Shown here piece after piece: positions 6,372 through 28,209 of a stretch of 64,000 nucleotides of DNA. Location: positions 1 through 64,000 of the forward strand of contig NZ_QREG01000024.1 in NCBI RefSeq assembly GCF_003386095.1, read 5' to 3'. The translations under genes and the position numbers were made by a program. Each line of letters starts with the position of its first letter. Position 1 is the first letter of the stretch. The notes beneath the pieces are model-generated. The model was not told where the DNA came from and searched no databases. It was given only the letters and a program-made list of their open reading frames with translations. This DNA is from Marinoscillum furvescens DSM 4134. Its GTDB lineage: Bacteria > Bacteroidota > Bacteroidia > Cytophagales > Cyclobacteriaceae.

Positions 6372-6450
6372 TCGAAGAGGGCTATGATGTATACCATCAA
6401 AGTTGGAAATTTTTCTCCAAATTCAGATTTTCTCACCGCTACTGAAGTTA

Positions 6451-7797: not shown

Positions 7798-7799
7798 TG

Positions 7800-10043: not shown

Positions 10044-10061
10044 CTTCAATATTATATCAAA

Positions 10062-11783: not shown

Positions 11784-11784
11784 G

Positions 11785-12951
11785 TTATTTCTTTTTCGTC
11801 AATTCTGGAAATGATACCGGTTCGGCATACATTTCTGAGAATAGCCCTTTGAATTTTTTTATCCCTTCATAAAAGAAGTACACCTCACCATTGATGCCAT
11901 AAGTACGATTACTTTCGATCATGGCGCGCAGCATTTCTTCCGAAGGGTTGTATTTATCTACTTGAAGAAGCACCCCTGGGTAAAAAATGGGCAAATCGGA
12001 ATCTGCCAGTTGCCAGGAGGTGATTTCTTCTAGTAATTGATTGTATGCGTCGATATTATATCTATATAGCTGCGGACACACCAGGTCTACATATCCTTGT
12101 CGAACCCATGTAGGCCAGTCCTGCAAGTAGTTTTCTTTGCTCCATGGGTATACACTTGGCGACATGCTCACCAGGCATTCCGGGTCTGCTTGTTTTACAC
12201 TTGTATAGAGCGCTTTAAGAAATTCATTGAGCTTCTGTGCGCGCCAGGACACCCATTCGAAATCGAGGTGATTTGCCGGAGGCTCCTTGCCACTATGCTC
12301 ACTTTTGTAAAGCTCCACGGTAAACTCATCGTACCCTCCATTGGAAGGCATTGCAGGCAAACGATCGTCTCCCTGAATTCCGTCTACATCGTATTTGTTT
12401 ACCACCTCTAAGACGAGTGAAGTGATGAAATCCTGCACCTCAGGGTGAAGTGCATTCATCCATTGAAATTTGTTTTTGGCAGTGATGTCACCATTAATGT
12501 CTTTGGACGCCCACTCTGGTTTTTGTTGGATGAGGGCTCCACCAGTATCGTCACCGTAGCTAGAGGCAAACCCAAACTCAAACCACGCAAATACCTTGAT
12601 GTCGCGCTTGTGGGCTTCTTCGATAACCTCTTCCAGGGGGTCTCTGTCACCGTATTTCGGATCGATACTTCGTCCGGTAAAATTTTTCATGATGTCACTC
12701 TGGTAGATCGTGTTGCCACGATTCCAGGTGACTAAAAAGATGGTATTGAAACCTAGGGAGTCGAGCAATTCTACAGACTCGATGATGTTTTCACGTGAGA
12801 GCAATACCTCACTGGCTACATTGGTCATCCATACACCTCGGACCGCTTCCTTTTTGGCAGGAAGCTCAGTTGGTTTTTGGTCCACCGAACCGCAGCTAAA
12901 TACAAGAAAAAATAAGCCGCATAGGGTAAAAGCTTGTAGTAGCTTTTGCAT
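11785..12951 (-). CDS. GHL10 glycoside hydrolase lipoprotein
   Basis: A 388-residue putative glycosidase. The signal ends at Cys20 (LFFLVFSCGSVDQ) with no acidic export stretch, suggesting a periplasmic lipoprotein. The GHL10 barrel shows AVRGVWMTNVASEVLLS, LVTWNRGNTIYQSD, IKVFAWFEFGFASSYG, DGIQGDDRLPAMPSNGGYDEF and FYPGVLLQV, closely paralleling its downstream neighbour without the DUF5018-like modules. ATG at 12951 is preferred over an in-frame GTG at 12975. A terminator hairpin at 12985-13030 lies just upstream, so this gene and those after it may depend on readthrough or on a separate promoter. Confidence 0.87.
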   Translation of the reverse strand: MQKLLQAFTLCGLFFLVFSCGSVDQKPTELPAKKEAVRGVWMTNVASEVLLSRENIIESVELLDSLGFNTIFLVTWNRGNTIYQSDIMKNFTGRSIDPKYGDRDPLEEVIEEAHKRDIKVFAWFEFGFASSYGDDTGGALIQQKPEWASKDINGDITAKNKFQWMNALHPEVQDFITSLVLEVVNKYDVDGIQGDDRLPAMPSNGGYDEFTVELYKSEHSGKEPPANHLDFEWVSWRAQKLNEFLKALYTSVKQADPECLVSMSPSVYPWSKENYLQDWPTWVRQGYVDLVCPQLYRYNIDAYNQLLEEITSWQLADSDLPIFYPGVLLQVDKYNPSEEMLRAMIESNRTYGINGEVYFFYEGIKKFKGLFSEMYAEPVSFPELTKKK

Positions 12952-12984
12952 GTTTTTGATTGAAGAAATGTTCACGCTATAATG

Positions 12985-13030
12985 AAAAAAGGCTGCCTTC
13001 AGTAGCTGGTAAGTACCCGAAGGCAGCCTT
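12985..13030 (-). terminator. Intrinsic terminator inside the PUL
   Basis: A perfect 12-bp stem (AAGGCTGCCTTC at 12989-13000 with GAAGGCAGCCTT at 13019-13030), followed on the minus strand by TTTTTTC. It lies 20 bp after the stop of the DUF5018/DUF4623-like gene and before the GHL10 pair. Confidence 0.85.
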
Positions 13031-13049
13031 AGATTGAGAATTGATTGTA

Positions 13050-14447
13050 TTAATCCTGAATTGCTAACGTAAGATCGAATTTGGCCAATGCCTGATTGGT
13101 GATTACGATGTAAAGCTCTGCTTTAGCTTCACTCACGATGTGGTGAGCTACGTTACCACTAGCATCATTGTTGGCTGTAGTATTACTACCTACAAAATCT
13201 GCAGAATACATCACATCGCTGCTGGTAACATTGTCGAGTCCGTCCGTTACATCGATTACTAAAAGTCGGCTTTCATTGGCGCTTCTAGGGAAAATTGCAG
13301 CCATTACTGTTTTATCACATAGCTGGAACAAAGTAAAATCGTTGTAGAAGAAGTCTACCAAATCACGATTTTCATTGGGAAGCTGCTGAAGTTTTGCGCC
13401 AGTAGCCAAATCAATTTCAGCAACATCTATGTCGTTACCATTTACCCATACAGTTTCGCTATCAGCTGTTAGTGAAGTAGCTGCAGCTCTTGAACCAAAA
13501 CCTGTCAAGCTATTGAAGCCTTGAGCTTTGATGATGGTAGGCGTTGGATTGAGCACGCCACCTTTTACTTCCCATCGATAGATATCTGATCCACGCTCTC
13601 CAGCGGTGAAATTTCTACCGTAGGCTGTATAAATGGCTGCATCACCAGAAATATCTCCAACCACAGAAAGGTTGTCACCCAGACGAACTGCCTCAGACAC
13701 TTCATACTCGATGTAAACTTCAGGCGCAGCTGATTCGTTGGCCCACTTATAGACTTTAAATACGGCCGTTCCTTGTCCATTAAAATCGAGGACATTGCAC
13801 GCCAGAATAGAACCATCGGCGCTTGTTTCCACGTCACCTAATTTCAGGCTCCCACCGGAGATATTGCTATTGTCCAGGTCTGCGAGCACTGCTCCGTCTG
13901 CTGGATCTAGCACTTTAATTTTGTCATGGTTGCTCATTACGTAAACATGTCCGTTTCCGTAGGCAATTCCATCTTCGCCATTGTTGGTAAACCAATCGGG
14001 GAGATTGCTACCAGCTATGGTGTATGACCATACCGCTTCGCTAAGAGTAAGTACAGGTTCTGTGCCCTGTGCAGCAATTTCTACAATTACGATCCATTCT
14101 TGAGTGGTCCCATCTTCTGCTGTAACCGTGTAAGTCACAGGCGTAGTAAAATCTTGTGGGGTTTCTGAAGCCGGGTTAACAGTTGCCTTTTCTGAAATCG
14201 TAAGAATTGGAGCAAGTGCTTTTACATCAGTACCAAATGGCACGGTGATTCTTACTGTGAAATTTTCGGCATTGACTGTACCCGTGATATCACCACCCAG
14301 ACAGCCACCAGCCAAATCTACTGCTACAATGTCTTTGCGCTTACTTAGCAAAGGTCCATCATCGCCTTCATCATCTTTACATCCTACAAACACTACCATG
14401 CTCAGTGCGAGGAGCAACACAGAAAATTTGCTCATTAAATTTTTCAT
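13050..14447 (-). CDS. Surface lipoprotein with DUF5018-like and DUF4623-like domains
   Basis: A 465-residue lipoprotein with Cys23 followed by KDDEGDD, a strong match to an acidic surface-export signal. One DUF5018-like beta module (about 40-125, VPFGTDVKALAPILTISEKA and VTYTVTAEDGTTQEW) precedes a beta-propeller-like DUF4623-type region (about 135-465) with repeated blade-like segments such as IAYGNGHVYVMSNHDKIKVLD. No catalytic motif was seen. Its place directly after the SusCD genes, where surface glycan-binding proteins usually lie, suggests it binds the PUL substrate (inference). It is paralogous to the adjacent upstream gene. Confidence 0.8.
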   Translation of the reverse strand: MKNLMSKFSVLLLALSMVVFVGCKDDEGDDGPLLSKRKDIVAVDLAGGCLGGDITGTVNAENFTVRITVPFGTDVKALAPILTISEKATVNPASETPQDFTTPVTYTVTAEDGTTQEWIVIVEIAAQGTEPVLTLSEAVWSYTIAGSNLPDWFTNNGEDGIAYGNGHVYVMSNHDKIKVLDPADGAVLADLDNSNISGGSLKLGDVETSADGSILACNVLDFNGQGTAVFKVYKWANESAAPEVYIEYEVSEAVRLGDNLSVVGDISGDAAIYTAYGRNFTAGERGSDIYRWEVKGGVLNPTPTIIKAQGFNSLTGFGSRAAATSLTADSETVWVNGNDIDVAEIDLATGAKLQQLPNENRDLVDFFYNDFTLFQLCDKTVMAAIFPRSANESRLLVIDVTDGLDNVTSSDVMYSADFVGSNTTANNDASGNVAHHIVSEAKAELYIVITNQALAKFDLTLAIQD

Positions 14448-14468
14448 ACAATCAATCTTAAAAGTTCA

Positions 14469-14501
14469 ATAAAAAGGAGTGCCCTACGAACACTCCTTTT
14501 G
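14469..14501 (-). terminator. Intrinsic terminator inside the PUL
   Basis: Stem AAAAGGAGTG (14472-14481) pairs with CACTCCTTTT (14491-14500) around a 9-nt loop, and on the minus strand it is followed by a T-run. It lies 6 bp after the stop of the SusD-adjacent lipoprotein gene. It probably limits readthrough so that susC, susD and the first surface lipoprotein are made in excess. Confidence 0.82.
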
Positions 14502-14506
14502 TGAAA

Positions 14507-16084
14507 TTAGTTGGCCAAATCTACAGTATATGCACCTACACCATTGTTGGTGATCAGTCCATAAACTGTAACAGTACCATCTGTATTTTTCTCGAAGCTC
14601 AGTCCGCCTGTAGCATTAAGGTTCTGAGATTCAGTAGTATCATCATCAAATGAAATTGTAGTAGCTTTTTCAGCTTTATCGAATCCTTCAGTTACATCGA
14701 AGAACACCAACTCTTGAGTTTCAGAATTTGGAGTATTGATTGAAACCAATACTTTGTTTGTTTTCAACTCAAAGTAGATGATATCTGAAGAGAAACCAGT
14801 CATCAGTTCAGTGGAGATAGAACCTTTAACTGTTCCGTCAGAACCGATCAATGTAGGGTTGATGCTGTTACCATTTACAATGATATCAGAATTTGCGTCG
14901 TTAGAAAGCACTGAGATACCTGGAGCTGAACCAAAAGAAGCGATATCAGCTACTACGATTTGCTCAGCCGTAGCATTTACTGTACCACCTGTTACTTTCC
15001 ACTTGTAAATGATATTGCCACCATTGCTTGCAGCGTAGATGTAAGCATCACCGTCAGTATCTCCAGTCACAGTGAAGTTGTCAATTCGTTTTTCTACTGT
15101 AGACTCTAGAATGATTTCCTGCTCAGCACTTTCATCATTCCAACGGAACACGTAGAATGTACCATTGTTCAAAGTACCCGTACAAGCAAGGATATTTCCA
15201 CCTTCATCCACATGCGCATCTACGATGTTTGCATAGATACCAGACAATCCAGTTTTGCTTTGCTTCAAGAATTTTTCTGAATCCTTCTCTACACCAGTAG
15301 CACGATCAAGAATTCTTAGTTTGTCTCTGTTGTTCACCGCATATACTGACTCAGCTCCGATTGCAATATCCGCATCATTGTTAGCTGTGAACCAGCTTGG
15401 ACGGCTGCTCGTACGGTTTACTAGTTCCCATTTAGCCTGTACATCAAGGCCTGGCTTAGCACCTTCAGTTACGGTAACTGTGTAGGCAGTAGTTGAGCCA
15501 TCCTGAGCAGTAACTGTGTAAGTCACATCACTAGAGAAGTCCTGAGCTACACCACTCTCTGGGCTTACAGAAGCCAAAGCAGAGATGGTCACTGTAGGTA
15601 TCAAAGCAGTTAGATCTGTACCATAAGGCACTTCTGCAGTGATCGCTGTACCTTCGATAGTAGCTGTTACAGAAGGATCAAGCTCAGCAAACACAAACTC
15701 AGTGATAACTTTCTCATCGCTTCCAGCTTCGGCAGAAACACTTACTGTATAATCTACTGTAGTGCCATCTTCAGCTGTCACTGTATAAGTAACGGCACTA
15801 GAAAAATCCTGAGCAGTACCGCTTTCAGGTGATACGGTAGCTTTAGAAGAAATGGTCACTGTAGGTGCCAATGCTGTAAGGTCTGTGCCAAAAGGAACAG
15901 TAGCAGTAATGTCTGTACCGCTGATCGATGCGGTCACTGCTGGGTCCAGGTCAGCAAATACAAAGGATAAAATTTCTTTTGCATCGCTTTGAGGTACGGT
16001 TGGCTCTTCGTCTTCACAAGATACGAAGGTGAAGCATACGATGGCAATCATTGCCAGCTTCATCAAATTCAAAAAATGTTTCAT
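14507..16084 (-). CDS. Surface lipoprotein with tandem DUF5018-like modules and a DUF4623-like region
   Basis: A 525-residue lipoprotein with Cys23 followed by EDEEP (acidic surface-export signal). Two tandem, strongly similar DUF5018-like modules occupy about 35-120 and 123-210; both carry the SFVFA/EFVFA start, GTDLTAL, PESG.AQDFSS and VTYTVTA motifs, indicating recent internal duplication. The C-terminal half (about 215-525) resembles that of the next gene (WFTANNDADIAIGAESVYAVNNRDKLRILD). Position right after susD suggests a glycan-binding surface protein; no enzyme motif was seen. A terminator follows the stop. Confidence 0.8.
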   Translation of the reverse strand: MKHFLNLMKLAMIAIVCFTFVSCEDEEPTVPQSDAKEILSFVFADLDPAVTASISGTDITATVPFGTDLTALAPTVTISSKATVSPESGTAQDFSSAVTYTVTAEDGTTVDYTVSVSAEAGSDEKVITEFVFAELDPSVTATIEGTAITAEVPYGTDLTALIPTVTISALASVSPESGVAQDFSSDVTYTVTAQDGSTTAYTVTVTEGAKPGLDVQAKWELVNRTSSRPSWFTANNDADIAIGAESVYAVNNRDKLRILDRATGVEKDSEKFLKQSKTGLSGIYANIVDAHVDEGGNILACTGTLNNGTFYVFRWNDESAEQEIILESTVEKRIDNFTVTGDTDGDAYIYAASNGGNIIYKWKVTGGTVNATAEQIVVADIASFGSAPGISVLSNDANSDIIVNGNSINPTLIGSDGTVKGSISTELMTGFSSDIIYFELKTNKVLVSINTPNSETQELVFFDVTEGFDKAEKATTISFDDDTTESQNLNATGGLSFEKNTDGTVTVYGLITNNGVGAYTVDLAN

Positions 16085-16114: not shown

Positions 16115-17665
16115 TTAGTCGACATCCCACCAAACACGTGTAGTGGGTAAGTCCGCTCCCTGCTGCTTCACGGCTTCACTGTAGCTATCAGCGTTGAGGC
16201 TTTGCTCCTCAGCAGGATATTTTAATCGAACAGGCACATCTGAACCACCTGTTTCACTAAGGCCATCTGTATTTGGAATAGGGTTGAGCACTGGGAATCC
16301 AGTTCTTCTGTATTCAGCATATGATTCAAAACCCTGATTGATATTCATCAGCCATTTTTGGGTAATGATTTGCTCCAATGCATTTGCGGGATCATAAGCT
16401 ATGCCCGGCTCTGCCAGGTATGCATCTATGTCTGTGGCGTCAATAGTCACCTCTGGATATGTGGCAAGTTCTTCTGCCGAAGCTCGGTTTTTGATGTCTT
16501 CGTATACAGTTACCCAAAACTCAATGGCAGCACGCACGCCAGCCTCATAGTGACCTTGCGCATTACCATCTCCCCAGCCTTTAAGAGCAGCTTCTGCAAG
16601 GAGAAACTCCACTTCTGCATAGGAAAGCATTACACTCGGTGCGTAAGGATTAGATACTATTTCTGAATCCTTCGAATAGTCTTTCAGATCCAGATCACTC
16701 AGCTGTTTCGGGTTGAGTCCGTTTTGCAATCCAGTATAAGCACCATTGCTTTCGGCAGGAGCCACATACAAGGGTAGTCGCGGATCGTTGTGGTCTTCCA
16801 GATAATCAAGCAGGGTGTTGCTCACACGGTACTCGTTGAAAATCCGAATAATGCTCATTGGCTGAAGATTTTCCAGCGCATTGCCTTTGTCTTTACCATA
16901 AGGCACCAGGGCAGAATCGTCATTGGAAGACAGCAACCTTCCGTCTGCTATCACCGCACGTACATGCTGCTCTGCCAGTGCAGGTGCAGCATCGCTAATA
17001 CGCATCGCTAGTCTCAGACGAAGCGAATTGGCAAAGCGTGTCCAGCTATCGATATCACTACCAAACATCACATCAGCAGCACCAAACGTTAGGCTTTTTG
17101 AAGGGTCAAAAGCAGCTACCGCTTGCTCCAGTTCAGTGAGCATAGCTGTATAGATTTCCTCCTGCGTGTCATACTTGGGAACAAGCTTACCTTCGAAAGC
17201 TTCGCTGTAGGGAACATCTCCCCACAAGTCCGTGATGCGGTGCATCATAAAAACTTTCCAAATACGAGCTATGCTGTTTTTGTTGATCTTATCTGCGTTG
17301 CCATCTGTCAGCTTTATGACCTGATGTGCCTGCATAACGAAATCCGAGTAAGCCTCCGTCCAGTAAGCTGTCAACCAGTCATTTCGTGTGAGGTATCGGC
17401 CTGTTTCGAAATAAGGTACCGCAACTGAATAATACTGGATGTAGTGGTTGGCATAAAGCTGCTGTGCTCGCTGAAACTCGGTATAGCGCAGTGCTCCGTA
17501 AACGATAGATCTCGTGAAAAGCAAGTTTTCGTTTGCACGATCAGCCTGTACTGCCAAAGGGCTCGTGTTGATCTCTTCGAAATCTCCAGTACATGCACCC
17601 ACTGAAAACAGTAGGATTAAAGCTGCGAAAAGGGTCTTGATATATTTTTGGCTCACGTTTTTCAT
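16115..17665 (-). CDS. SusD/RagB-family outer-membrane lipoprotein
   Basis: Glycan-binding lid of the SusCD importer. The 516-residue protein has a lipoprotein signal with Cys25 (SVGACTGDFEEINTSP, typical of the SusD-like_2 group) and a helix-rich TPR-like body (for example RIWKVFMMHRITDLWGDVPYSEAF, SDIDSWTRFANSLRLRLAMRI). The C-terminal NINQGFESYAEYRRTGFPVLNP is characteristic of the family. Its ATG shares one base with the susC stop (TAATG), so translation is coupled. SusD caps the SusC barrel at the outer surface. Confidence 0.95.
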   Translation of the reverse strand: MKNVSQKYIKTLFAALILLFSVGACTGDFEEINTSPLAVQADRANENLLFTRSIVYGALRYTEFQRAQQLYANHYIQYYSVAVPYFETGRYLTRNDWLTAYWTEAYSDFVMQAHQVIKLTDGNADKINKNSIARIWKVFMMHRITDLWGDVPYSEAFEGKLVPKYDTQEEIYTAMLTELEQAVAAFDPSKSLTFGAADVMFGSDIDSWTRFANSLRLRLAMRISDAAPALAEQHVRAVIADGRLLSSNDDSALVPYGKDKGNALENLQPMSIIRIFNEYRVSNTLLDYLEDHNDPRLPLYVAPAESNGAYTGLQNGLNPKQLSDLDLKDYSKDSEIVSNPYAPSVMLSYAEVEFLLAEAALKGWGDGNAQGHYEAGVRAAIEFWVTVYEDIKNRASAEELATYPEVTIDATDIDAYLAEPGIAYDPANALEQIITQKWLMNINQGFESYAEYRRTGFPVLNPIPNTDGLSETGGSDVPVRLKYPAEEQSLNADSYSEAVKQQGADLPTTRVWWDVD

Positions 17666-20600
17666 TAGAGTGTAAGCTTTAAGTTGAAACCATAGCTACG
17701 GGTAGACGGGAAGGCGTATGCCTCGATTCCCTGGTCGTTTCCGGCATTGAAGGTGGCTTCAGGATCAAAGCCAGGAGTGTTTTTGTATAGGATGAAAAGG
17801 TTTCTTCCAACAAGCGAAATACTTGCTGCATGGAAGGGGCTCTTCATAAACATAGACTTTGGCAGGCTATAGCCGATCGTGACTTCACGCAGCTTCACGT
17901 AGCTTCCGTCGTAAAGAAACTCCTCTGCAAAGTTCGAGGCACGCCCACCTACAGTTTGCCAATAGGTCTGCGGGTCTACTTCGATCGTGTTTGGACTACC
18001 ATCTTGTCTTACGCCCTCTGCGATGTATCCGCCTGCTCCGGCATACCATTCTCTACGCTGATCCAGTGTATAGGCTGCATTGCCATTCCATGCGGAAGCC
18101 GAATTGGTAAACGAGTAGATATCACCACCTTTTCGAATGTCAAACAGTACACCCGCCGACACATCGCCAATTTGGAGGCTGTGGCCAAAACCAGCCAAGA
18201 AGTCTGGCAGGTAGTTACCTATTTTCTTGATCCCATCAGGGTCTGGTATAGGCAGGCCATTGTCACCTATGATTCTTTCCCCTGTAGATTCATCTCTTAA
18301 GTATGCCTTGTCGGCATAAATGTCACCAAAAGGATTGCCCACGGTCGCCTGGATGCGTACACCAAACTGATCATAGTTTCCTCCCAAAGGATATACCAGT
18401 ACGTCCGGCGCCAGCTCCTCAACTACAGAAACGTTTCTGGTAAAGTTGATATAGGTGTTGTAGCGGAATCTCGGCTTTTCTACTACCGTAGCATTTAGCG
18501 CAAGCTCTACACCGTAGTTTCTAATGAGACCAGAGTTGAACACGGCAGTTTCAAAACCTGATGGTTTAGACACGGGCACATTGATGATTTGATTTTTGGT
18601 GCCTGCATCATAGTACGTAGCGTCGAAGGTGATCCGGTTGTTGAGCAAGCTCAGCTCAAGACCCGCCTCTATGGAAGTGGTGCGCTCTGGCTTCAGGTCC
18701 AACGGAGGACGAGTAGTAGCCACCTGGCCAAACCCCTGACCACCATGTGAAAGCGAGTTGGAAGGGTAAAGCAAATCCAACTGATATGGGTTAGGATCAT
18801 TACCTACAGCAGCCCAGCTCGCTCGCACTTTACCAAAACTGATGAAAGTAGGCAAGTCTAGCAGTTCAGAAAGCACCAAACTCGTAGACGCTGATGGGTA
18901 AAAATAGGACCATGCGTCTGGAGGCAGTGCACTTGACCAGTCGTTTCTGGCTCCTACTTCCAGGAATATTTTGTCATTATAATCTACCTGTGCAGTACCG
19001 TAAAGTGAGTAAACCACTTTTTCTGAATACGACTCTCTCGCCTGCACACTGTTGGCATTTTGCAAGGCAAAAAGATTGGGAACATCGAGGCCCTGTGCTT
19101 CATTGTATACCCCACGTGCCCGGCTTTTCAATACATTTCCACCGGCCGTGAGTGTTCCATTCCAATTGTTGTTTAGTGGAAGGGATGCAGTCAGCAAAAA
19201 GTCAGAGTTAGATTCCTGCACGCGGTTGTACGCCTGACTGTAAAAACTCTTATCGGAAGTCACCCGGTAAATGGTGTTGGTAGCGTTGCGCACCTCTCGG
19301 TGGTCGTTGTAAAAATCTGTACCACTTCGCACGTGGGCCTTGAGCCAGTCGGTGAGACGATACTCCAGCATCATGAATCCAAGCATACGATCACGCTCGT
19401 CCTCATTGGTATTGAGGTTTACCGCCCAGTATGGGTTTTGCCATGTAGTAGCGGCTCCGTTGTTGTAAAGTCTAGGAGTGCCATCAGGATTTTGGAAGTT
19501 TTGCAGGTCCTGAAGGCGAATGGTGCGAGGCATTTCGATCAGCGCACTCATTGGGTTGTCCGGACTTAGTGTAAGATTGGGACGGTTAAATGCCGTCTGA
19601 TTGATGTAGTTGATCTTACCGCTAAACTTCAGCCGATCCGAAAGATCACTCGATACATTGAGGCTGGTAATGATTCGCTCTAGCTCACTGTTGGGCATGA
19701 TGTTGTCACGATGCATATGGGTAATGGACCCGCGTACCTGAATGTCCTCGTTACCCGTAGTGATCCCTACGCTATTGCTGTAGGCCACTCCTGTACGGAA
19801 AAAGTCTTTGATGTTGTCAGGCTGCGCATTGTAAGGCACCTGATCACCTGCCCAGTTAAGCAGTGGCTGTCCGTTTACATCGGTTTGTCCTTGTGAAGGT
19901 GCTCCCCAGCTGGTGCGCACATTGTCACGTATTTGGCCGTTGGCGTCCACCAGGATTTCACCATTGGAACCTCTGCCATAATCGTTTTGAAAATCTGGTA
20001 GCACCAGAGGAGTCTCAAAAGTGAGGTTGGAGTTGATTTCGATACCTACGCCTTTACGAGCTTTCCCTTTTTTAGTCGTAATCATCACTACTCCATTCTG
20101 CCCGCGTGAACCGTACAGGTTGGTAGCACCAGCACCTTTTAGCACGCTGATAGACTCAATGTCTTCGGGGTTGATGTTGGAGATGCCATCACCATAATCT
20201 ATACCGCCAAACTGGCCTCCACCACCTTGCGGGTTGGCCATGGGCACGCCATCCACCACGTAGAGTGGGCTGTTTCTACCTTGTAAGCTGGAAAATCCCC
20301 TGATCACCACTTTAGATGTACCACCAGGGCCTGTGCCTGACTGATTGATTTGCACGCCGGCTACTCTGCCTGAAAGCGAATTGATTACGTTGCTCTCACG
20401 TGCAGTAGTCAGCTCCTCACCATCTACTGACTGTGAAGCATATCCCAGCGAACGTTTATCACGCTCTACGCCCAATGCCGTAACTACTACGGCTTCCATT
20501 TCTTGTATATCCAGCTCTAGCACGACATTTACGACTGTACGCCCATTAAGCTGTATTTTTTGAGTTTCAAACCCCACAAAAGACACTACAACAGTGGCAT

Positions 20601-20802
20601 CCAGATTGGAAACCTTTAAGTTGAACTCACCATCCAGGTTGGAAACGGTACCATTGGTGGTACCCTGCTCCATCACTGTAGCTGCTGGAATAGGCTCTCC
20701 CTGATCATCTGTGATCACCCCGCTAATCACCGCAGATTGTGCGAATATCTGCTGTGAAAGCAGAAGCGTGATGACCCAATAAAATATTCCTTTGCTATTC
20801 AT
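17665..20802 (-). CDS. SusC/RagA-family TonB-linked outer-membrane transporter
   Basis: TonB-dependent channel that imports oligosaccharides captured by SusD. The 1045-residue protein has a signal peptide (cleavage after QQIFAQ, about 22), an N-terminal carboxypeptidase-regulatory-like domain (about 24-110, ISGVITDDQGEPIPAATV), a TonB-box-like segment MEAVVVTALGVERDKRSLGY, a plug (about 130-235, LSGRVAGVQINQSG, GSRGQNGVVMITTKKG) and the beta barrel ending in SYGFNLKLTL. The N-terminal extension is the classic SusC hallmark. The presumed operator at 20873-20896 lies about 70 bp upstream. Confidence 0.96.
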   Translation of the reverse strand: MNSKGIFYWVITLLLSQQIFAQSAVISGVITDDQGEPIPAATVMEQGTTNGTVSNLDGEFNLKVSNLDATVVVSFVGFETQKIQLNGRTVVNVVLELDIQEMEAVVVTALGVERDKRSLGYASQSVDGEELTTARESNVINSLSGRVAGVQINQSGTGPGGTSKVVIRGFSSLQGRNSPLYVVDGVPMANPQGGGGQFGGIDYGDGISNINPEDIESISVLKGAGATNLYGSRGQNGVVMITTKKGKARKGVGIEINSNLTFETPLVLPDFQNDYGRGSNGEILVDANGQIRDNVRTSWGAPSQGQTDVNGQPLLNWAGDQVPYNAQPDNIKDFFRTGVAYSNSVGITTGNEDIQVRGSITHMHRDNIMPNSELERIITSLNVSSDLSDRLKFSGKINYINQTAFNRPNLTLSPDNPMSALIEMPRTIRLQDLQNFQNPDGTPRLYNNGAATTWQNPYWAVNLNTNEDERDRMLGFMMLEYRLTDWLKAHVRSGTDFYNDHREVRNATNTIYRVTSDKSFYSQAYNRVQESNSDFLLTASLPLNNNWNGTLTAGGNVLKSRARGVYNEAQGLDVPNLFALQNANSVQARESYSEKVVYSLYGTAQVDYNDKIFLEVGARNDWSSALPPDAWSYFYPSASTSLVLSELLDLPTFISFGKVRASWAAVGNDPNPYQLDLLYPSNSLSHGGQGFGQVATTRPPLDLKPERTTSIEAGLELSLLNNRITFDATYYDAGTKNQIINVPVSKPSGFETAVFNSGLIRNYGVELALNATVVEKPRFRYNTYINFTRNVSVVEELAPDVLVYPLGGNYDQFGVRIQATVGNPFGDIYADKAYLRDESTGERIIGDNGLPIPDPDGIKKIGNYLPDFLAGFGHSLQIGDVSAGVLFDIRKGGDIYSFTNSASAWNGNAAYTLDQRREWYAGAGGYIAEGVRQDGSPNTIEVDPQTYWQTVGGRASNFAEEFLYDGSYVKLREVTIGYSLPKSMFMKSPFHAASISLVGRNLFILYKNTPGFDPEATFNAGNDQGIEAYAFPSTRSYGFNLKLTL

Positions 20803-20872: not shown

Positions 20873-20896
20873 ACTTATTTAATTTTTTTATTAAGT
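20873..20896 (-). promoter_or_regulatory. Candidate ROK-regulator operator upstream of susC
   Basis: A 24-bp AT-rich element with inverted ends ACTT...AAGT and a central run of seven T (plus strand). It is 21/24 identical, in the same orientation, to 26763-26786. It lies 71-94 bp upstream of the susC start and just beyond the AGE-gene stop. The role is inferred from the duplication and the divergent ROK gene. Confidence 0.6.
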
Positions 20897-20903
20897 AAGC
20901 CCG

Positions 20904-22103
20904 CTAATTATCTGCTGGGGCAACCTGACTATTTTTTGAAGCACGTTTTTCTGACTTTTCCAATGTCTTCCAAACCTGCATCAAACCCCTGGGCACATGG
21001 AAGCATCCCTTCCATTTTCCGCCTTTCAGCTCATTGAGTCGGCTACCATCACGATGTAGGTATCCAAACCACTCACCATGCGCTTCATCACGGAAATGCG
21101 TCCAGGCATAGTTATGAATTTTATCAAACCAGTCTTTCACTTCTTCGTTCGGCTGGTAGGCATAGGCTTTGGATAGACCCACCAAAGACTCTAAATGTAC
21201 CCACCAGAGTTTTTGATCCCACTCCAGCTGCTGCATCGGATGACCTTTGCGGTCCATAAAGTATAGAATACCTCCGTGCTCCTGATCCCATCCATAATCG
21301 AGCAAACGCATCATGATCGTTCGAGCTTTCTCGATGAGCGCAGCATTGTTTTGTCTCACACCCAAATCCATGATAAACCACATGGCTTCTATACCATGAC
21401 CTGGATTGATCAAACGTCCATCAAAGGAATCAGACAAGCTTCCATCCAGATGTACGTTTTCCAGGATCAGGTCTATGTCCTGGTTGTAAAACACGTCCAT
21501 TACTTCATGGATCACATCTTCGATCAGCTCATCTACCAACTGCTTGTCCAGCAAATGCTCCATCTCCAGCGAGAGGTTACAAAGGATCATGGGCAGCGCG
21601 AAGTTTTTAAGCTCTCGTGTACCCGGATACGCCTTATTGTACTTGCCTTTGGTATTGGCGCGGCGTTTCAAAATATTTCCGAAAGTCCGCTGTGCAAGCA
21701 ATGCATATTCTTCATTGGGTACAGCCTTGTAAAGGGCACCAAATGCCATAGCGGCAAAACAATCTGAAAAAATATTGTATGGCTGCACCAGGGGCTGTCC
21801 CTCCCTATTGAGTGAAAAATACCAATTTCCTTCACTATCCATCCCATGCTTCAATAGGAAGTCGGCCCCTTGCTTAGCTATATTCAACCACTCGGATTTT
21901 TGCTCTACAGTATTGTAGAGAGTGGCAAACATCCATACTTGTCTGGCCTGCAGCCAGATAAATTTATCCGTGTCGTACACCTTACCAGTACGATCCAGAC
22001 AGGTAAAAAATCCACCGTTTTCACGGTCTATCGAGTGCTTTTCCCAAAAGGGAATCACCCCTTTTAGCAATTCATCCCGATATATATTGATGTAGTCTGT
22101 CAT
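20904..22103 (-). CDS. AGE-family epimerase/isomerase (N-acylglucosamine 2-epimerase type)
   Basis: A 399-residue (alpha/alpha)6-barrel enzyme. Family members interconvert GlcNAc and ManNAc, mannose and fructose/glucose, or epimerise beta-1,4 disaccharides such as cellobiose or mannobiose. Visible family features are WLQARQVWMFATLYN near the N-terminus, LINPGHGIEAMWFIMD (catalytic His region), LWWVHLESLVGLSKAYAY and the C-terminal WFGYLHRDGSRLNELKGGKWKGCFHVPRGLM (conserved His). No signal peptide, so cytoplasmic. Its ATG overlaps the DUF4434 stop by 4 bp, so the two are co-translated. The substrate is undecided; with GH92 either ManNAc/GlcNAc or a mannoside fits. Confidence 0.88.
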   Translation of the reverse strand: MTDYINIYRDELLKGVIPFWEKHSIDRENGGFFTCLDRTGKVYDTDKFIWLQARQVWMFATLYNTVEQKSEWLNIAKQGADFLLKHGMDSEGNWYFSLNREGQPLVQPYNIFSDCFAAMAFGALYKAVPNEEYALLAQRTFGNILKRRANTKGKYNKAYPGTRELKNFALPMILCNLSLEMEHLLDKQLVDELIEDVIHEVMDVFYNQDIDLILENVHLDGSLSDSFDGRLINPGHGIEAMWFIMDLGVRQNNAALIEKARTIMMRLLDYGWDQEHGGILYFMDRKGHPMQQLEWDQKLWWVHLESLVGLSKAYAYQPNEEVKDWFDKIHNYAWTHFRDEAHGEWFGYLHRDGSRLNELKGGKWKGCFHVPRGLMQVWKTLEKSEKRASKNSQVAPADN

Positions 22104-23041
22104 CCTTTTTTTAGTCGGTTCATGTATTCATTATATCTATTGTACAGGTGGTGTGCCTGCACATAGCTGGACTGTGGACTCATAAAATGCGAAAACTCAA
22201 AAGTGATCGCCTTGTCCACTCCTGCCTTAGCAGCAGCTTCCAGTTTCAGTCTTAGTTTATCAAATTTGATAGGCAGAAACTTGATGGGCATGTCCCGATC
22301 AAAGCTCTCTGCATTGGTCCAGCTGGTCATGCCATATTTATCCGCAAGCTCCTTATTGACCTGTAGGAAATCTGCCAGCTCGTCATAGTCGAGGTGCCCA
22401 TCCTGAAAAGCCACGATATCCACTGCATCTTTGATCCCATCAAAGATCTCATCCCACTCACGCTGGTGGGTTTCTAGTGATACCGCATCTTCTTTGGAGA
22501 GGGAAGAACTGCTGGCCATAACTGCCTTTTTCCCATCTACCCAAGGGGAAATGAGCGTAGGAAGTCCGCCACTCATGTCTTTGCATTGCTTGCCCAGTGT
22601 GCTAAATGCCTCTATGGCACCTTTCGTCTTACGGCTGATTTCCGTACTGATATACCAGCCACCGAAGCTCTTTTTATGACCGTAGGTAGACCATACTTCA
22701 TCGATCACATATTTGTTGGATTCGATCTCGTGATGTAAATCCCCAGTTTGCCAGTAGTGTCCACTGTCATAAAGCCCGAAAAACAATTTCATATTGCGCT
22801 CTGCTGCCAGATCCAGGAATAACTCCACCAAATCTTCCGATGGTCGGTAGCATCCATAGTTTTCCTGAAGGTACTTGCTCGGGTAGGTGATGAATCGGCC
22901 ATAGCCACAACGAATAATGATCACCGTATCTATGCCAATGGCTTTCATATGATCAAAATCCTGCGCCCACTCCTTTCTACCCCAATTTTGATGTGGGATG
23001 TCGTGAGAGATTTCGTCTATAAATGTTCCTGTTATCTTCAT
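22100..23041 (-). CDS. DUF4434 family protein (putative TIM-barrel glycosidase-like)
   Basis: A 313-residue cytoplasmic protein (no signal) matching the DUF4434 pattern: MKITGTFIDEISHDIPHQNWG, DFDHMKAIGIDTVIIIRCGYG, FGLYDSGHYW, GGWYISTEIS, VDIVAFQDGHLDYDEL, ITFEFSHFMSPQSSY. The repeated beta-strand plus acidic-residue endings and the AFQDGH motif suggest a glycoside-hydrolase-like barrel, but activity is not established for the family. It sits between the symporter (4 bp gap) and the AGE epimerase (4 bp overlap), so it probably acts on the imported sugar inside the cell. Confidence 0.82.
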   Translation of the reverse strand: MKITGTFIDEISHDIPHQNWGRKEWAQDFDHMKAIGIDTVIIIRCGYGRFITYPSKYLQENYGCYRPSEDLVELFLDLAAERNMKLFFGLYDSGHYWQTGDLHHEIESNKYVIDEVWSTYGHKKSFGGWYISTEISRKTKGAIEAFSTLGKQCKDMSGGLPTLISPWVDGKKAVMASSSSLSKEDAVSLETHQREWDEIFDGIKDAVDIVAFQDGHLDYDELADFLQVNKELADKYGMTSWTNAESFDRDMPIKFLPIKFDKLRLKLEAAAKAGVDKAITFEFSHFMSPQSSYVQAHHLYNRYNEYMNRLKKG

Positions 23042-23045
23042 CCAA

Positions 23046-24884
23046 TTATTCGTTTGAAGCTTCGTCAGCCGTTTTTAAGTGATTCCACCAGAACTTCTTC
23101 AGCAATACCGTAGTGAGGATAAATACCCCTGACCAAATCACCATTTCTGTGTTTTGGCGAATCATAAAGTAGATCGGCAAGACCACCTGCGCCATTTGCC
23201 AGATGATACCCACCAGCACATTGAACGTATCACGACCCAGGTCCTGATTTGGCACGAAGGAAGGATCTTCTGCCATCACCTCGCGCTTGATAGGCCCCCA
23301 AAAGCCCCATGGCTTGGTCTGCTTATAAAATTTCTTGATGTCCTCCCGGTTTTCCAAAGGAGAGATAAATGTACCGATGATACTCCCCAGCAGAGCAAAC
23401 CCGAAAATGATCGGGAACACGTAGATGTCCACATACTGTGGGTAGAAAAAGAGCTTGGCTGTGGAAGCAATCAAACCAAACAACATGCCATAGAAGTAGC
23501 CGTATCCGCTAAACCTCCACCAAATCCATTTCAGCATGTTGGCAGCCACATAACCTCCATACAGTGCTGAAGTAAGCCACAGTGTTAGTTCATTGAGTGA
23601 GGCTGCATTAAATCCAAATATCACCCCAACCACTACCAAAACAATAGAGGACAATATACTCAAGGTAATGTAGCGCTTGTTACTGGCATTAGGATTGATG
23701 TATTTCTTATAAATATCGTTGACGAGATAGGCCGGAGCAGCATTGACAAAGGCCGAGAAGGTACCCATAAAGGCAGAAAGGAAACCTGCCAAAATCAATC
23801 CTTTGATTCCCACCGGCATAAACTTGGAGATGGCCAGCGGCAGTACTTTTTCAAAATCGATGGTATCACCTGCGAGTTCATCACCGAGGTATACCAACGC
23901 TAGTACGGAGAAGCCAGCGATCATGAGATAACGAGGAATATACATTACCCAAATCGTCGTAAAGCTCATTTTAGCAGCTTCGGAAGGCTTTCTGGCAGCA
24001 AGCAAGCGCTGCATGTCGTAGCTGGGTACAGGCCCGGCGATAGAAGCAAAAATTCCTTTAAAAAGCATCATCATGAAGAGGATACCAAAGAACCCAAAGC
24101 CGTCTCCGTCTATTTTGTCATTCACCCCCGGGAATGGCGTGTTGGTCCAGTCGAGGTTGAGCTCCCAGCCAAACCACAGGTCTTTCCAACCTGCCGGCAC
24201 TACTGCGCTGATCTGCTCGGCAGATACTGAAGTAAAAGCAATGTATCCTACGGCAAAACAGCTGATAGTCATAATGACAAACTGTAGCACTTCCGTAGCT
24301 ACCACACTATACATCCCTCCCTTTACAGTATAAAGCGTGGTGAGAAATATGATGAGCATGGCGTAGGATCGCTCCGAAGAAATCTCCCACCCCGCTAGCG
24401 CAAAAGACAAATCCCAGGGGAGAATAGAAGTACAATACTTGCCGATACCTTCGAAAAAATAAGCGATAAAGCCTACTACACTGATCACGGCAAAAGTCAC
24501 TACGATGATGTGTGAAAGCCTTGCTCCTTTACCATCTCCAAAACGGAAGGTAATCCACTCGGCACCAGTCATTACTTTGGATCGGCGCAACCAGATAGCC
24601 AGGTAAACAAAAATAAATACCTGATTCCAAACCGGCCAGAGCCACGGGATCCAGGCACTTTTAAGTCCATAGACAAATAAGATACTTACCGTCCACATGG
24701 TCCCGGAGATATCAAACATCCCCGAAGCATTACTAAGTCCGAGGTAGTACCATTTCATGGTATTGCCTCCGAGGAAATACGACTCCAGGTTGGATGATGC
24801 CTTTTTGGAGATATAAAACCCTAAAAAGAGAATCCCTGCTACGTAAGCAAAAATGATTGCGATATCGAGTGCTTCCAGCGACAT
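23046..24884 (-). CDS. Sodium:solute symporter (SSS family)
   Basis: Inner-membrane Na+-coupled importer, 612 residues, with about 14 membrane helices and a longer C-terminal tail than the glucose-type member elsewhere in the window. Family features include the first helix LDIAIIFAYVAGILFLGFYIS, YFLGGNTMKWYYLGLSNASGMFDISGTMW, FAYFFEGIGKY and AGFLSAFMGTFSAFVNAAPAYLVNDIY. The gene lies 3 bp after the FAD oxidoreductase and 4 bp before DUF4434, so it probably carries the product of the periplasmic enzymes, a mono- or disaccharide or amino sugar (inference). Confidence 0.92.
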   Translation of the reverse strand: MSLEALDIAIIFAYVAGILFLGFYISKKASSNLESYFLGGNTMKWYYLGLSNASGMFDISGTMWTVSILFVYGLKSAWIPWLWPVWNQVFIFVYLAIWLRRSKVMTGAEWITFRFGDGKGARLSHIIVVTFAVISVVGFIAYFFEGIGKYCTSILPWDLSFALAGWEISSERSYAMLIIFLTTLYTVKGGMYSVVATEVLQFVIMTISCFAVGYIAFTSVSAEQISAVVPAGWKDLWFGWELNLDWTNTPFPGVNDKIDGDGFGFFGILFMMMLFKGIFASIAGPVPSYDMQRLLAARKPSEAAKMSFTTIWVMYIPRYLMIAGFSVLALVYLGDELAGDTIDFEKVLPLAISKFMPVGIKGLILAGFLSAFMGTFSAFVNAAPAYLVNDIYKKYINPNASNKRYITLSILSSIVLVVVGVIFGFNAASLNELTLWLTSALYGGYVAANMLKWIWWRFSGYGYFYGMLFGLIASTAKLFFYPQYVDIYVFPIIFGFALLGSIIGTFISPLENREDIKKFYKQTKPWGFWGPIKREVMAEDPSFVPNQDLGRDTFNVLVGIIWQMAQVVLPIYFMIRQNTEMVIWSGVFILTTVLLKKFWWNHLKTADEASNE

Positions 24885-24887
24885 ATA

Positions 24888-26708
24888 TTACTTTTCTGAA
24901 ATTAAGTGACCGTCAAAGTTGACAGGTTGTGCAAATGGGTCAAGTGCGGCCTGTAGATAGACGGCTACCTCTGCTCTTGAGAGATATGACGCTTCGGTAG
25001 AAATGCCCGGGATTGTCTCCAAATCCCGGGGCATTGAAACACCTAACCAACTAAAAATTTCCTTTAAAAACTTTGTATCCACCCAGGCACCAGAAGCATG
25101 TACCTCTTTTAATTCCGGATAATAGGAAAGCAATCCTTCTTTGAGTTGGTACTGGCTGATGGGCTGACTGGGGTAAAACCATGTCTCATTGGCCCACTTG
25201 TAAGGCACTCCAGTACCTTTCATGATGCCTGTAGCCCCTATTTTTTGGATGGCTTCAAATGCCGGGTGCGTAGCTGCCACATCTTTGTAGGGCATCAGGT
25301 AAGCTCCCTGATCCAGCAGCGCCTGCTGTACTTCTCTAATGCTTACTTCTGCCGGGTTGACGTCCTGCTTTGCCGCTACTGCCGCCAAAGCACCCGCTGC
25401 CTGACCGATACCCATCACTACAGGTTGTAGGCGAGTAGCTCCGTTGACGATATTGGAAACACCAATACTTTTTTCTGCAAATACAAGGTTTGGCTGACTC
25501 TCAGGCACCAAAGACCCGAGTGGAATATTGTAAGATGGCACCTTAATGTTGATAAAATCAATGTCTGGAGCCTCCTCATTTTTGTCATGATGATGATCTA
25601 TAGGGTAGTCACCTACTGCTACTCCGGTGCGGTAATATTTTTCGGGCTGATCAAAAGGTGCAGCTAGATGACGCACGGCCAGCAAAGACTTTGCCACAGG
25701 TCGTCTGGCCTCTCTATGGTATGGTATGAGTGGAAATTCATCTTTAGTAGGAAACTCATCCTCGGCAAGCCCAAGGTGCTTATACCCCAGCTCGTGCTGA
25801 ATGAAATAAATAAACTTACGGGTATAGTCTTTGGCCTCTTCCAGCCTGTCTGCTCGCTCTTTCTTATTTAGCCCAATGAGATTTACATAAAAGTCATTCC
25901 CGCAGTTTGGCCAGTTGATCATGTACTTGCCGTTGGGTAATTTGCCATAGTCCAGCATCATGTCACAGGATACTCCGTCGCCCTTTTCACCCGCTGGCAC
26001 ACAGGCACAAGCAAATTCTTCAGGATCATATCCGGCTGGTTTTTTTATGGTCTTGTCAGCACCGGCACCATAGTCTTTCAAAATAGCTACATAGGTAAGG
26101 TCCTGAATGATATCATTGGCATCTTCTGGCGCAAAAGCATCGACTGACTGATCATCCATACCCACGGTATAAGGTACTCCGAGCATGGCCGAAACATCTC
26201 CCAGTTCTGTAGCATCGATTACTACTTTGGCGGTGATCGTTTTGGTTTTTCTACCTACCTGATAGCTGACCTCCCATTTGTCGGTATAGCTTAAAGACTT
26301 CAGGCTAGCTTTATGTATGACATTGAGATTTGGATAGCCCGATGCGAGCTCTGCCAGCTTGGCCGCCCCCACTGCAGGCTCAAACAAACAATGACTAACC
26401 CATCCAGTAGCCACCGCCTTGGGACCACCATAATGGTCATATAGCTTTTGCCTAAACTCTCCCCACAGACCAGATGGCAGTTCATGATTGCCATCTATAG
26501 CTGAAACTCCTGCAGAAGTAAGCATCCCCCCAAGCCACGGAGTTTCCTCAACCACCAGCACTTCGACATCCATTCTGGCTGCCTGAATAGCTGCCATGGT
26601 ACCTGAGGCACCTCCTCCGATGATTACTACATCCGCCGAAGACTGTGCAAATGCTGGCATCGAAAAAGCCAGGACTAGAAGTGTAAGTATGATTCGTAGT
26701 TTTGCCAT
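24888..26708 (-). CDS. Exported FAD-dependent oxidoreductase (PF12831 type)
   Basis: A 606-residue protein with a Sec-type signal peptide (LLVLAFSMPAFAQ, cleavage about 22) directly followed by an FAD-binding Rossmann motif VVIIGGGASGTMAAIQAARM, then VEETPWLGGMLTSAGVSAIDG typical of the PF12831 family. The C-terminal 130 residues look like S-layer-homology-type repeats (FEAIQKIGATGIMKGTG, YPSQPISQYQL, YLSRAEVAVYLQAALDP). Members occur in sugar-degradation loci and may oxidise a sugar or support redox-assisted glycoside cleavage; the substrate is unknown. It is the first gene of the unit that also encodes the symporter, DUF4434 and AGE proteins. Confidence 0.87.
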   Translation of the reverse strand: MAKLRIILTLLVLAFSMPAFAQSSADVVIIGGGASGTMAAIQAARMDVEVLVVEETPWLGGMLTSAGVSAIDGNHELPSGLWGEFRQKLYDHYGGPKAVATGWVSHCLFEPAVGAAKLAELASGYPNLNVIHKASLKSLSYTDKWEVSYQVGRKTKTITAKVVIDATELGDVSAMLGVPYTVGMDDQSVDAFAPEDANDIIQDLTYVAILKDYGAGADKTIKKPAGYDPEEFACACVPAGEKGDGVSCDMMLDYGKLPNGKYMINWPNCGNDFYVNLIGLNKKERADRLEEAKDYTRKFIYFIQHELGYKHLGLAEDEFPTKDEFPLIPYHREARRPVAKSLLAVRHLAAPFDQPEKYYRTGVAVGDYPIDHHHDKNEEAPDIDFINIKVPSYNIPLGSLVPESQPNLVFAEKSIGVSNIVNGATRLQPVVMGIGQAAGALAAVAAKQDVNPAEVSIREVQQALLDQGAYLMPYKDVAATHPAFEAIQKIGATGIMKGTGVPYKWANETWFYPSQPISQYQLKEGLLSYYPELKEVHASGAWVDTKFLKEIFSWLGVSMPRDLETIPGISTEASYLSRAEVAVYLQAALDPFAQPVNFDGHLISEK

Positions 26709-26762
26709 GTTAAAATAACTTTCGAAATCCGAAGATATATATTTTATGTTTTAAGTATTAAT

Positions 26763-26786
26763 ACTTTATTAATTTTTTTAATAAGT
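26763..26786 (-). promoter_or_regulatory. Candidate ROK-regulator operator upstream of the FAD oxidoreductase
   Basis: Second copy of the 24-bp element (inverted ends ACTT...AAGT; inner dyad TTATTAA-N5-TTAATAA is perfect). It is 21/24 identical to 20873-20896 and lies 55-78 bp upstream of the FAD gene. It is in the 274-bp divergent region shared with the ROK gene, about 200 bp from the ROK start. No clear TAnnTTTG promoter was found here. Confidence 0.62.
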
Positions 26787-26982
26787 TAATTCACGCCACA
26801 ACTTTTACCGACGGCAAAAAAGCTAAGTTTCTAATGGAGAAAGGATGTTTCTGAGCGTTTTTCAAGGGCATTGCTATGCTGCCAATTATTAAATAATTTT
26901 TAAATGACTGCATTGGATTGTTAAAAAGAGTTGATAATATAGCATATCACACGCATTCATCATTTTTAACCACGCCATAGGA

Positions 26983-28209
26983 ATGTCTAAGACTTTTTTC
27001 GAGCGCCTCAACCTCATGACCCCATCGGGGGTAGCGTACAAAAACGTAAACCTGAAGAAACAGATCCTGGCCTACTTTGCCAATTCGGGCAATGCCACTA
27101 TAGCAGATCTATGCAAAACACTTACACTGAGCGCCCCTAAAGTCACCAATCTCATAAACGAACTCATAGAAGAGGGCCTTGTCAATGACTATGGAAAGGA
27201 TAGTTCTACAGGAGGCCGTCGGCCCAATATCTACGGCCTGGCTCCAAATGCAGGCTTTTTCCTGGGCGTGGACGTCAAGCGCTACCATCTCAACATCAGC
27301 TTGATCGATTTTCGAAAGAATGTAATCGAGATCAAAGAAAATTATCCCTACCAGCTGGAAAACACTCAGGAATCACTTGACGAGCTATTGGGCATCATTA
27401 CTTCCTTTATCAATGGGCTCAAGATTCCGAAGAGCAAAATTCTGGGCATGGGTATCAACCTTTCCGGACGTGTAAACCACACCACTGGATACAGTTACAG
27501 CTTTTTCCACTTCCAGGAAGACCCGCTTAGCAAAATCATTGAATCGGCCATAGGCATACCTGTCACACTCGAAAACGATTCGCGTGCCATGGCATTTGGA
27601 GAATATAGTAAGGGTGTGGTGCGTGATGAAAAAAACGTCATCTTCCTCAACCTGGACTATGGTATCGGTATCGGCATTATCATCAACGGCCAGATATATT
27701 ATGGAAAATCTGGCTATTCGGGAGAATTTGGTCACATCCCTATATTTGATAACGAAATCATCTGCCACTGTGGCAAAAAGGGCTGTCTGGAAACAGAAGC
27801 CTCCGGATGGGCACTGCTCAACACTTTCAAAGAACATGTAAGAGCTGGATCTAGCACCTCTGCCATGCTAAACAAAAAAAGTGTGGACGAGCTGAAGCTC
27901 AAAGACATCATAGAAGCCGCCAACAGTGACGATGTGCTGGCGATAGATCTGATAGCACAAATAGGCAACAAGCTCGGAAGAGGCATTGCACTACTGATCA
28001 ACCTCTTTAACCCTGAACTTGTCATACTAGGTGGAAGCCTTGCAGCCACGGAAGACTACATACGGCTCCCTATGAAGAGTGCCATACACAAGTATTCGCT
28101 TAGCCTGATGAGCAATGACACCCAGCTCAAGATCACTGCACTCCCCAACCGGGCTGGCGTAATGGGTGCTTGCCTGCTTGTACGCAACCGCCTTTTAGAT
28201 CTGGCTTAA
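26983..28209 (+). CDS. ROK-family transcriptional regulator (NagC/XylR type)
   Basis: A 408-residue regulator: an N-terminal winged helix-turn-helix (about 23-75, ILAYFANSGNATIADLCKTLTLSAPKVTNLI), then a ROK sugar-binding domain with FLGVDVKRYHLNISL, SGEFGHIPIF and the zinc motif CHCGKKGCLE. It senses a sugar or sugar phosphate and represses or activates sugar genes. Divergent from the FAD-SSS-DUF4434-AGE unit, it is the only regulator in the PUL and is the likely binder of the paired 24-bp elements. Its stop overlaps the convergent metallophosphoesterase gene by 4 bp. Confidence 0.93.
   Translation: MSKTFFERLNLMTPSGVAYKNVNLKKQILAYFANSGNATIADLCKTLTLSAPKVTNLINELIEEGLVNDYGKDSSTGGRRPNIYGLAPNAGFFLGVDVKRYHLNISLIDFRKNVIEIKENYPYQLENTQESLDELLGIITSFINGLKIPKSKILGMGINLSGRVNHTTGYSYSFFHFQEDPLSKIIESAIGIPVTLENDSRAMAFGEYSKGVVRDEKNVIFLNLDYGIGIGIIINGQIYYGKSGYSGEFGHIPIFDNEIICHCGKKGCLETEASGWALLNTFKEHVRAGSSTSAMLNKKSVDELKLKDIIEAANSDDVLAIDLIAQIGNKLGRGIALLINLFNPELVILGGSLAATEDYIRLPMKSAIHKYSLSLMSNDTQLKITALPNRAGVMGACLLVRNRLLDLA

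Follow-up and report, generated by a model that had tools for sequence, protein, structure and literature searches.

Do two nearly identical 24-bp elements in a glycan-use gene cluster mark the binding sites of a regulator encoded beside them, and which genes would such sites control? The question arises from a 64,000-nucleotide stretch of Marinoscillum furvescens DSM 4134 (contig NZ_QREG01000024.1, positions 1 to 64,000 of the forward strand; hereafter the window), where one element (A) precedes a susC gene and the other (B) lies between the gene for an FAD-dependent oxidoreductase (the FAD gene) and a divergent gene for a ROK-family transcriptional regulator. A preliminary description of this DNA had proposed both elements as operators of that regulator at two promoters, and conservation of the motif beside ROK, FAD and susC genes in relatives supports the proposal. 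We consider it probable that the elements are operators of the adjacent ROK-family protein, which would be a repressor of amino-sugar or glycan use. The sites and the regulator gene are:

20873..20896, no strand: predicted operator A (ACTTATTTAATTTTTTTATTAAGT), 71-94 bp upstream of susC (ATG 20802), top rank in the window at 21.2 bits.
26763..26786, no strand: predicted operator B (ACTTTATTAATTTTTTTAATAAGT), 55-78 bp upstream of the FAD gene (ATG 26708), rank 2 at 21.0 bits.
26884..26907, no strand: candidate operator C (AATTATTAAATAATTTTTAAATGA), 76-99 bp upstream of the ROK gene, rank 3 at 13.4 bits.
26983..28209, + strand: ROK-family transcriptional regulator of 408 amino acids (aa), N-terminal winged helix and ROK domain.

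The similarity between A and B is real and lies where the preliminary description had placed it, with 21 of 24 positions identical; any other 24-mer of the window matches A or B at no more than 17 of 24. A is found in the 101-bp gap between an epimerase gene and susC (25% GC), and B in the 274-bp region that separates the divergent FAD and ROK genes (29% GC); the measured distances agree with the earlier placement of the pair 55-94 bp upstream of two presumed transcription units and of the second element in the divergent region of the ROK gene. Both follow a layout of about ACTTWWTWA-N6-TWAWWAAGT and are imperfect inverted repeats (self-complementary at 16 of 24 positions in A and 14 of 24 in B). 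The inverted ends noticed earlier belong to this repeat, the run of seven T is the AT-rich centre, and the shared orientation carries little meaning because the element is an imperfect palindrome.

As the elements consist of A and T everywhere except for the outer C and G, and the surrounding intergenic DNA is itself AT-rich, they might be promoter or UP-like sequences that are alike by composition. We regard this as highly improbable, since none of 2,000 dinucleotide-preserving shuffles of both intergenic regions produced a pair with 21 of 24 identities (shuffle maximum 20, median 17) and none of 2,000 reached the matrix scores of A and B. Across the whole 5.96-Mb genome, the pattern ACTTWWTWAWWWWWWTWAWWAAGT occurs with no mismatch at A and B only, with three more places at two mismatches and four at three. 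At up to three mismatches there are 9 pattern places compared to 22 for a reversed-pattern control; therefore, only strong matches carry signal and weak ones carry none.

To describe the motif independently of the window, we excluded it and collected 86 ROK upstream regions of 450 bp each (149 and 220 bp for two at a contig end), from six orthologues of the same family (57-70% identity) and 80 loci of named species, the best 80 of 482 (here and below, genomes have handles in G and loci in L; L044 was omitted from counts, its sequence being the same as that of L052). Palindromic expectation-maximisation on these regions returned wnTTwwTAAwwwwwwTTAwwAAnw, the motif of highest likelihood over 61 seeds, reached in three of the eight best runs listed, two of these three from random seeds. 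Scanned across the window, this relatives-only matrix places A, B and C at ranks 1-3, with the next score at 7.3 bits. A and B also take ranks 1-2 in each of three clade-held-out folds, and held-out ROK regions score at least 15 bits in 17 of 27, 12 of 32 and 10 of 27 cases (39 of 86), compared to 4 of 1,720 shuffles and, among upstream regions of other genes (possibly including real targets), 18 of 702. Because element B served as a seed in these folds, they test whether the motif transfers and not whether it can be discovered blind, the blind discovery being the run over all 86 regions; they are also impure, since a quick ROK tree places L116 (fold O) and L113 (fold C) with Pedobacter of fold S. 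Random seeds within the seeded folds recovered the AT-rich palindrome in one of three, and in one of these folds a GC-rich motif was the likelier one (254 versus 235). A separate cross-validation that used random seeds alone settled on other motifs in two of its three folds.

Which genes carry the site in relatives? The earlier expectation that the motif would stand upstream of orthologous susC and FAD genes is largely borne out, although the motif is absent at part of the orthologous loci. Among FAD orthologues, 30 of 41 have a site of at least 14 bits within 350 bp, most of these regions overlapping the training regions; L053, L059 and G120 provide FAD sites outside them. The corresponding figure for susC-family genes is 6 of 40, a set made up almost wholly of other receptors of less than 40% identity, and of the relatives at 43% or more, G120 (62%) and G139 (61%) have the site and L068 (43%) has none of at least 11 bits. 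G120 and G139 are informative in their arrangement. In G120, ROK and susC are divergent neighbours separated by a region that contains a site and the FAD gene lies 14 kb away with a site of its own, and in G139 the FAD gene adjoins ROK and has a site while susC has its own. Both clusters are rearranged and both genes keep their sites, and therefore the pairing of site with FAD and susC outlasts rearrangement in these two genomes. The strongest site of G120 (25 bits) precedes a ROK-domain kinase-like gene. Other genes of the cluster are rarely marked within 350 bp: the sodium:solute symporter (SSF) in 0 of 10 cases, DUF4434 in 0 of 17, DUF5009 in 0 of 18, GHL10 in 0 of 5, DUF5018 in 0 of 7, the epimerase in 1 of 21 and GH92 in 1 of 4. 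In G611, a site precedes the epimerase gene.

Away from the cluster, the sites recur before amino-sugar genes in some relatives. Of 45 regions fetched, three fall within the G120 and G139 clusters and 42 are distant sites, and 16 of these 42 precede amino-sugar genes among the proteins listed: nagB in ten (often divergent from anmK), GH20 in three, and a NagX-like, a NagP-like and a BadF-type kinase gene in one each. NagB scores above the cut-offs of TIGR00502 and NF002557 and AnmK above that of NF007149; NagX and NagP fall below their equivalog cut-offs, and the BadF-type kinase was identified by eye, with no Pfam match. A wider census holds 120 sites of at least 16 bits, 97 with a classified gene, these being counts of loci and not of independent genomes (L045/L215 and L102/L189 overlap). 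Within 600 bp of nagB, a site of at least 14 bits is present at 9 of 27 loci from genomes with ROK and at 0 of 3 from same-genus genomes without it, a count that covers 30 of the 47 nagB places found (L227, one of the 27, is incomplete and its site is visible only in L174). The sequence of the nagB site differs between Pedobacter and Rufibacter, and for that reason these sites look as if they were recruited repeatedly.

Several results weigh against the sites being operators of this ROK protein. No site of at least 12 bits is found in 29 of the 86 ROK upstream regions, a Chitinophaga clade included, nor beside ROK in G866 (65%) or in G307 (67%), where the FAD gene is divergent from ROK. G729 (50%) has the same divergent arrangement with no site of at least 8 bits, FAD genes lack a site at five loci from genomes with a ROK orthologue of 49-59% identity, and G134 (65%) and G111 (57%) have no genome match at up to one mismatch. 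Beyond the training set, the 1,500 bp examined in 20 further ROK relatives (43-67%), which came from searches at order and phylum level, hold a site of at least 15 bits in four (L256, L264, L267 and L269) and of at least 12 bits in five, and among 24 distant ROK proteins (33-38%) these thresholds are reached in three and six, respectively. Furthermore, 26 of the 42 distant sites do not precede known amino-sugar genes among the proteins listed (a protein of about 400 aa in seven, susC-like genes in four, other or no genes in fifteen), and nagB of the window's own genome has no site. In that genome the only amino-sugar mark is at the cluster with the N-acylglucosamine 2-epimerase, and therefore this ROK need not govern the core pathway there.

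A strict limitation of the motif to this ROK clade is not upheld, as the distant ROK genes L278, L280 and L282 have sites (15.5, 18.5 and 21.6 bits); L020, L021, L023, L026 and L032 have none. The distant set is mostly without the motif, and several of its members adjoin an apparent mannose-6-phosphate isomerase gene, as judged by eye. With few sites in the further relatives and some beside distant ROK genes, the tie between the motif and this ROK clade is less close than the training set would imply: the motif is common near the best-matching orthologues and far from universal in the wider group. The Chitinophaga clade (L077, L082, L084-L087, L089, L095 and L096) lacks a site of at least 11 bits upstream of ROK, its 10-kb flanks give no match to FAD, the epimerase or DUF4434, and its ROK proteins may have a different DNA specificity. 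Another relative at 43% identity, L276, has a nagB-like divergent neighbour, judged by eye, and no site of at least 12 bits.

Could the sites then belong to another transcription factor encoded elsewhere, with the proximity of ROK being incidental? The site-less ROK regions, the scarcity of sites in further relatives and their presence beside three distant ROK genes would fit this, as would the occurrence of the motif far from ROK genes in Sphingobacteriaceae and Chitinophaga. The distribution across genomes speaks against it, and we consider such a factor improbable. At up to one mismatch, we searched 16 genomes of the family, nine of them without a ROK match at 1e-60. The seven with a close ROK yielded 9 places in five genomes (two in the window's genome, one each in G081 and G077, three in G120 and two in G139) compared to 2 for the reversed control, and all nine are on the ROK contig, those of G120, a genome of one contig, lying no more than 15 kb from ROK. 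The nine genomes without ROK yielded 2 places, both in G010, for 3 in the control (two in G010, one in G007), and five same-genus genomes without ROK yielded none (control 1). FAD orthologues in genomes with a ROK of only 34-35% (G130 and G158) or with no ROK match listed (G563 and G630, whose inclusion in the ROK search is inferred) have no site of at least 8 bits in 600 bp, and neither do those of G1140, G1158 and G1168, genomes outside the ROK comparison. Over 47 genomes, we counted 62 places in 31 genomes compared to 10 for the reversed control (sum of rows), which again argues against likeness by composition; these genomes were reached via 48 of the 80 loci, a selection that leans to loci with FAD or a site, with the L116 genome left out and most site-less Chitinophaga loci outside it.

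The protein itself has a C-terminal ROK domain (PF00480, 191.4 bits against a cut-off of 22.9) and an N-terminal winged helix-turn-helix (HTH_24, 23.8 against 21.9), with two further helix-turn-helix models narrowly below their cut-offs (MarR_2, 26.6 against 27; HTH_IclR, 21.7 against 22). Searching the genome with PF00480 gives eight places and searching with the protein gives five matches, of which the four other than the protein itself align only from residue 92 on, without the helix-turn-helix part. In the six orthologues, compared by eye, the ND, GE.GH and C.C....C columns, which we take to be sugar-pocket and zinc residues, are invariant, and the position of DxGxT, presumably the kinase phosphate-binding motif, reads GVDVK or similar. 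In G139, the ROK gene beside FAD (L049:8593-9815) seems split into two overlapping pieces with stops, and both cluster sites are present.

If the ROK protein binds these sites, does it repress or activate? Where a -7 box can be recognised, the operator lies across the expected -33 position or stops immediately short of it. The geometry is weak evidence, and this adds to the points on the opposing side: counted from the 5' end of the site, 23 of the 177 flanks have a -7-like box at 47-51 bases, for a mean of 9.5 and a maximum of 18 of 177 in 200 permutations. At several loci the box is about 49-51 bases from that end, so that the operator ends just upstream of -33 as an activator site can, and ROK regulators can be activators or repressors (PMC9599254, in its accessible text). 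Elsewhere the best -7 box is nearer by about 12 or 22 bp, such that the operator would overlap -33, which fits occlusion, and the characterised NagR of Bifidobacterium is negative according to the same text (PMC9599254). The geometry leans towards occlusion without proof, and activation by ROK from these sites seems unlikely.

For repression, the preferred reading, a ROK dimer would bind the 24-bp AT-rich palindrome, with a half-site of about ACTTWWTWA, and the bound operator would lie at or just upstream of the -33 region. Bound at B, it would keep the FAD-SSF-DUF4434-epimerase operon off, and at A it would keep off susC-susD and the following glycan genes, however far the A transcript may reach. 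An amino sugar (N-acetylglucosamine (GlcNAc), N-acetylmannosamine or a phosphorylated form) would then enter the apparently retained sugar pocket, and the protein would leave the DNA, turning on uptake and catabolism together. By analogy with Bifidobacterium NagR, and from the list of targets, an amino sugar is the most likely effector.

The weaker site C may be autoregulatory, with ROK lowering the expression of its own gene from there. The score of C is matched by 7 of 2,000 shuffles of the FAD/ROK region and by 1 of 2,000 of the part beyond B, and C is hardly palindromic (10 of 24 positions). Among the relatives, 15 of 86 have two sites at least 60 bp apart upstream of ROK compared to 0 of 430 shuffles. 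The 'two-operator design' of the preliminary description therefore captures the two strong sites and is too narrow, as a weaker third site precedes ROK and a wider set of genes is marked in relatives. We rejected the idea that B and C are built to form a loop: the two sites are 121 bp apart here, the distance in two-site relatives ranges from 69 to 354 bp, and helical phase is not constant.

How does this compare with known systems? The window protein has the family and domain layout of NagC and Mlc of Escherichia coli, both NCBIfam models match it and its PDB relatives include Mlc, but it is far below both equivalog cut-offs (NagC NF047937, 204 bits against 650; Mlc NF049930, 184.7 against 530). 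NagC and Mlc bind AT-rich dyad operators and act by looping. Lmo0178 of Listeria (PDB 5f7p and 5f7q) is a solved ROK relative of similar length (E value 1.5e-41), likened by protein only, and Listeria belongs to the Firmicutes, unlike the window organism. The single direct precedent that we found is the predicted NanR regulon of Bacteroides (BT0433), in which the same comparative method assigned sialic acid and GlcNAc use, with some periplasmic or extracellular members, to a Bacteroidota ROK regulator (PMC3878776, in its accessible text). In contrast to the present case, that text predicts NanR in Bacteroides only and names no FAD/DUF4434/GHL10 cluster, and the two are likened by description and not by motif or orthology (PMC3878776). 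NagR of Bifidobacterium represses as a ROK protein from operators that stand at many promoters and overlap -10 or -35 in 10 of 11 cases. In vitro, its complex with DNA is broken up by GlcNAc and by the phosphates of GlcNAc, and its regulon grew from local GlcNAc catabolism to host glycan use (PMC9599254). It is an actinobacterial system with different target genes and transporters, however, and is likened here without its operator sequence (PMC9599254).

The literature covered, with subscription papers and RegPrecise outside the search, yielded no description of this regulator or site in the present lineages, and the accessible text of PMC5507952, PMC5583593 and PMC11300592 has nothing on this regulator. 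The predicted system is a new example of an already known type of switch, the one-component ROK regulator. Whether it amounts to an undescribed amino-sugar regulator of Bacteroidota is, in our judgement, evenly balanced: one operator type would link SusCD uptake, nagB catabolism and anmK recovery of cell-wall sugars, with a target set that shifts by lineage and includes an apparently secreted family of about 400 aa, and this joint reading would extend over Sphingobacteriaceae, Chitinophagaceae, Hymenobacteraceae and the window's own family. Control of polysaccharide utilisation loci in Bacteroidota is mostly described in terms of hybrid two-component, SusR-like and sigma/anti-sigma systems. 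The first two are described in the accessible text of PMC3878776. Here, a one-component switch with a well-defined operator is predicted over a whole SusCD cluster and, in some relatives, over core amino-sugar genes. The site model can be used to find targets, the orphan protein family included, and offers a cheap test of the cluster's sugar.

Proteins of that orphan family are about 400 aa long, match nothing in Pfam or NCBIfam and have, as judged by eye, a signal-like N-terminus. Their genes follow a site of this type in 16 loci, and a search of the window's genome for the family gave nothing at E ≤ 0.001 (no positive control):

L115:13867-15057, - strand: protein of about 400 aa, with relatives in L053, L059, L092, L106, L116, L118, L119, L126, L200 and L202-L207.

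The genes of the window that would answer to B and A are, in order of transcription:

24888..26708, - strand: FAD-dependent oxidoreductase (PF12831, 311 bits), first gene behind operator B.
23046..24884, - strand: sodium:solute symporter (SSF), profile match.
22100..23041, - strand: DUF4434 protein, strong similarity to PDB 4h41 (deposited as a putative alpha-L-fucosidase).
20904..22103, - strand: N-acyl-D-glucosamine 2-epimerase (NF052547, 667 bits against a cut-off of 600; PDB 6f04 and 2gz6).
17665..20802, - strand: SusC-like TonB-dependent receptor, profile match, first gene behind operator A.
16115..17665, - strand: SusD-like lipoprotein, profile match.
4484..16084, - strand: following same-strand genes, namely two DUF5018, two GHL10 glycosidase-like, GH92, a DUF5009 membrane protein, GDPD and a PfkB kinase.

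No phosphotransferase system gene is among the 19 window proteins scanned. In G077, nagB comes after the FAD-SSF-DUF4434-epimerase genes on the same strand, and several loci of Rufibacter, Chitinophaga and Pedobacter have a susC-like gene next to FAD in the same orientation, so that one operator would suffice there. The two GHL10 proteins of the window stand in tandem (10062-12975), one with DUF5018-type N-terminal domains; the GHL10 family includes an E. coli peptidoglycan glycosidase, and from this membership the substrate of the cluster may be a cell-wall glycan. Elsewhere in the same genome (L130, contig C4:200895-200918), a fourth candidate site of 16.7 bits lies 17 bp before the open reading frame of a predicted lipoprotein.

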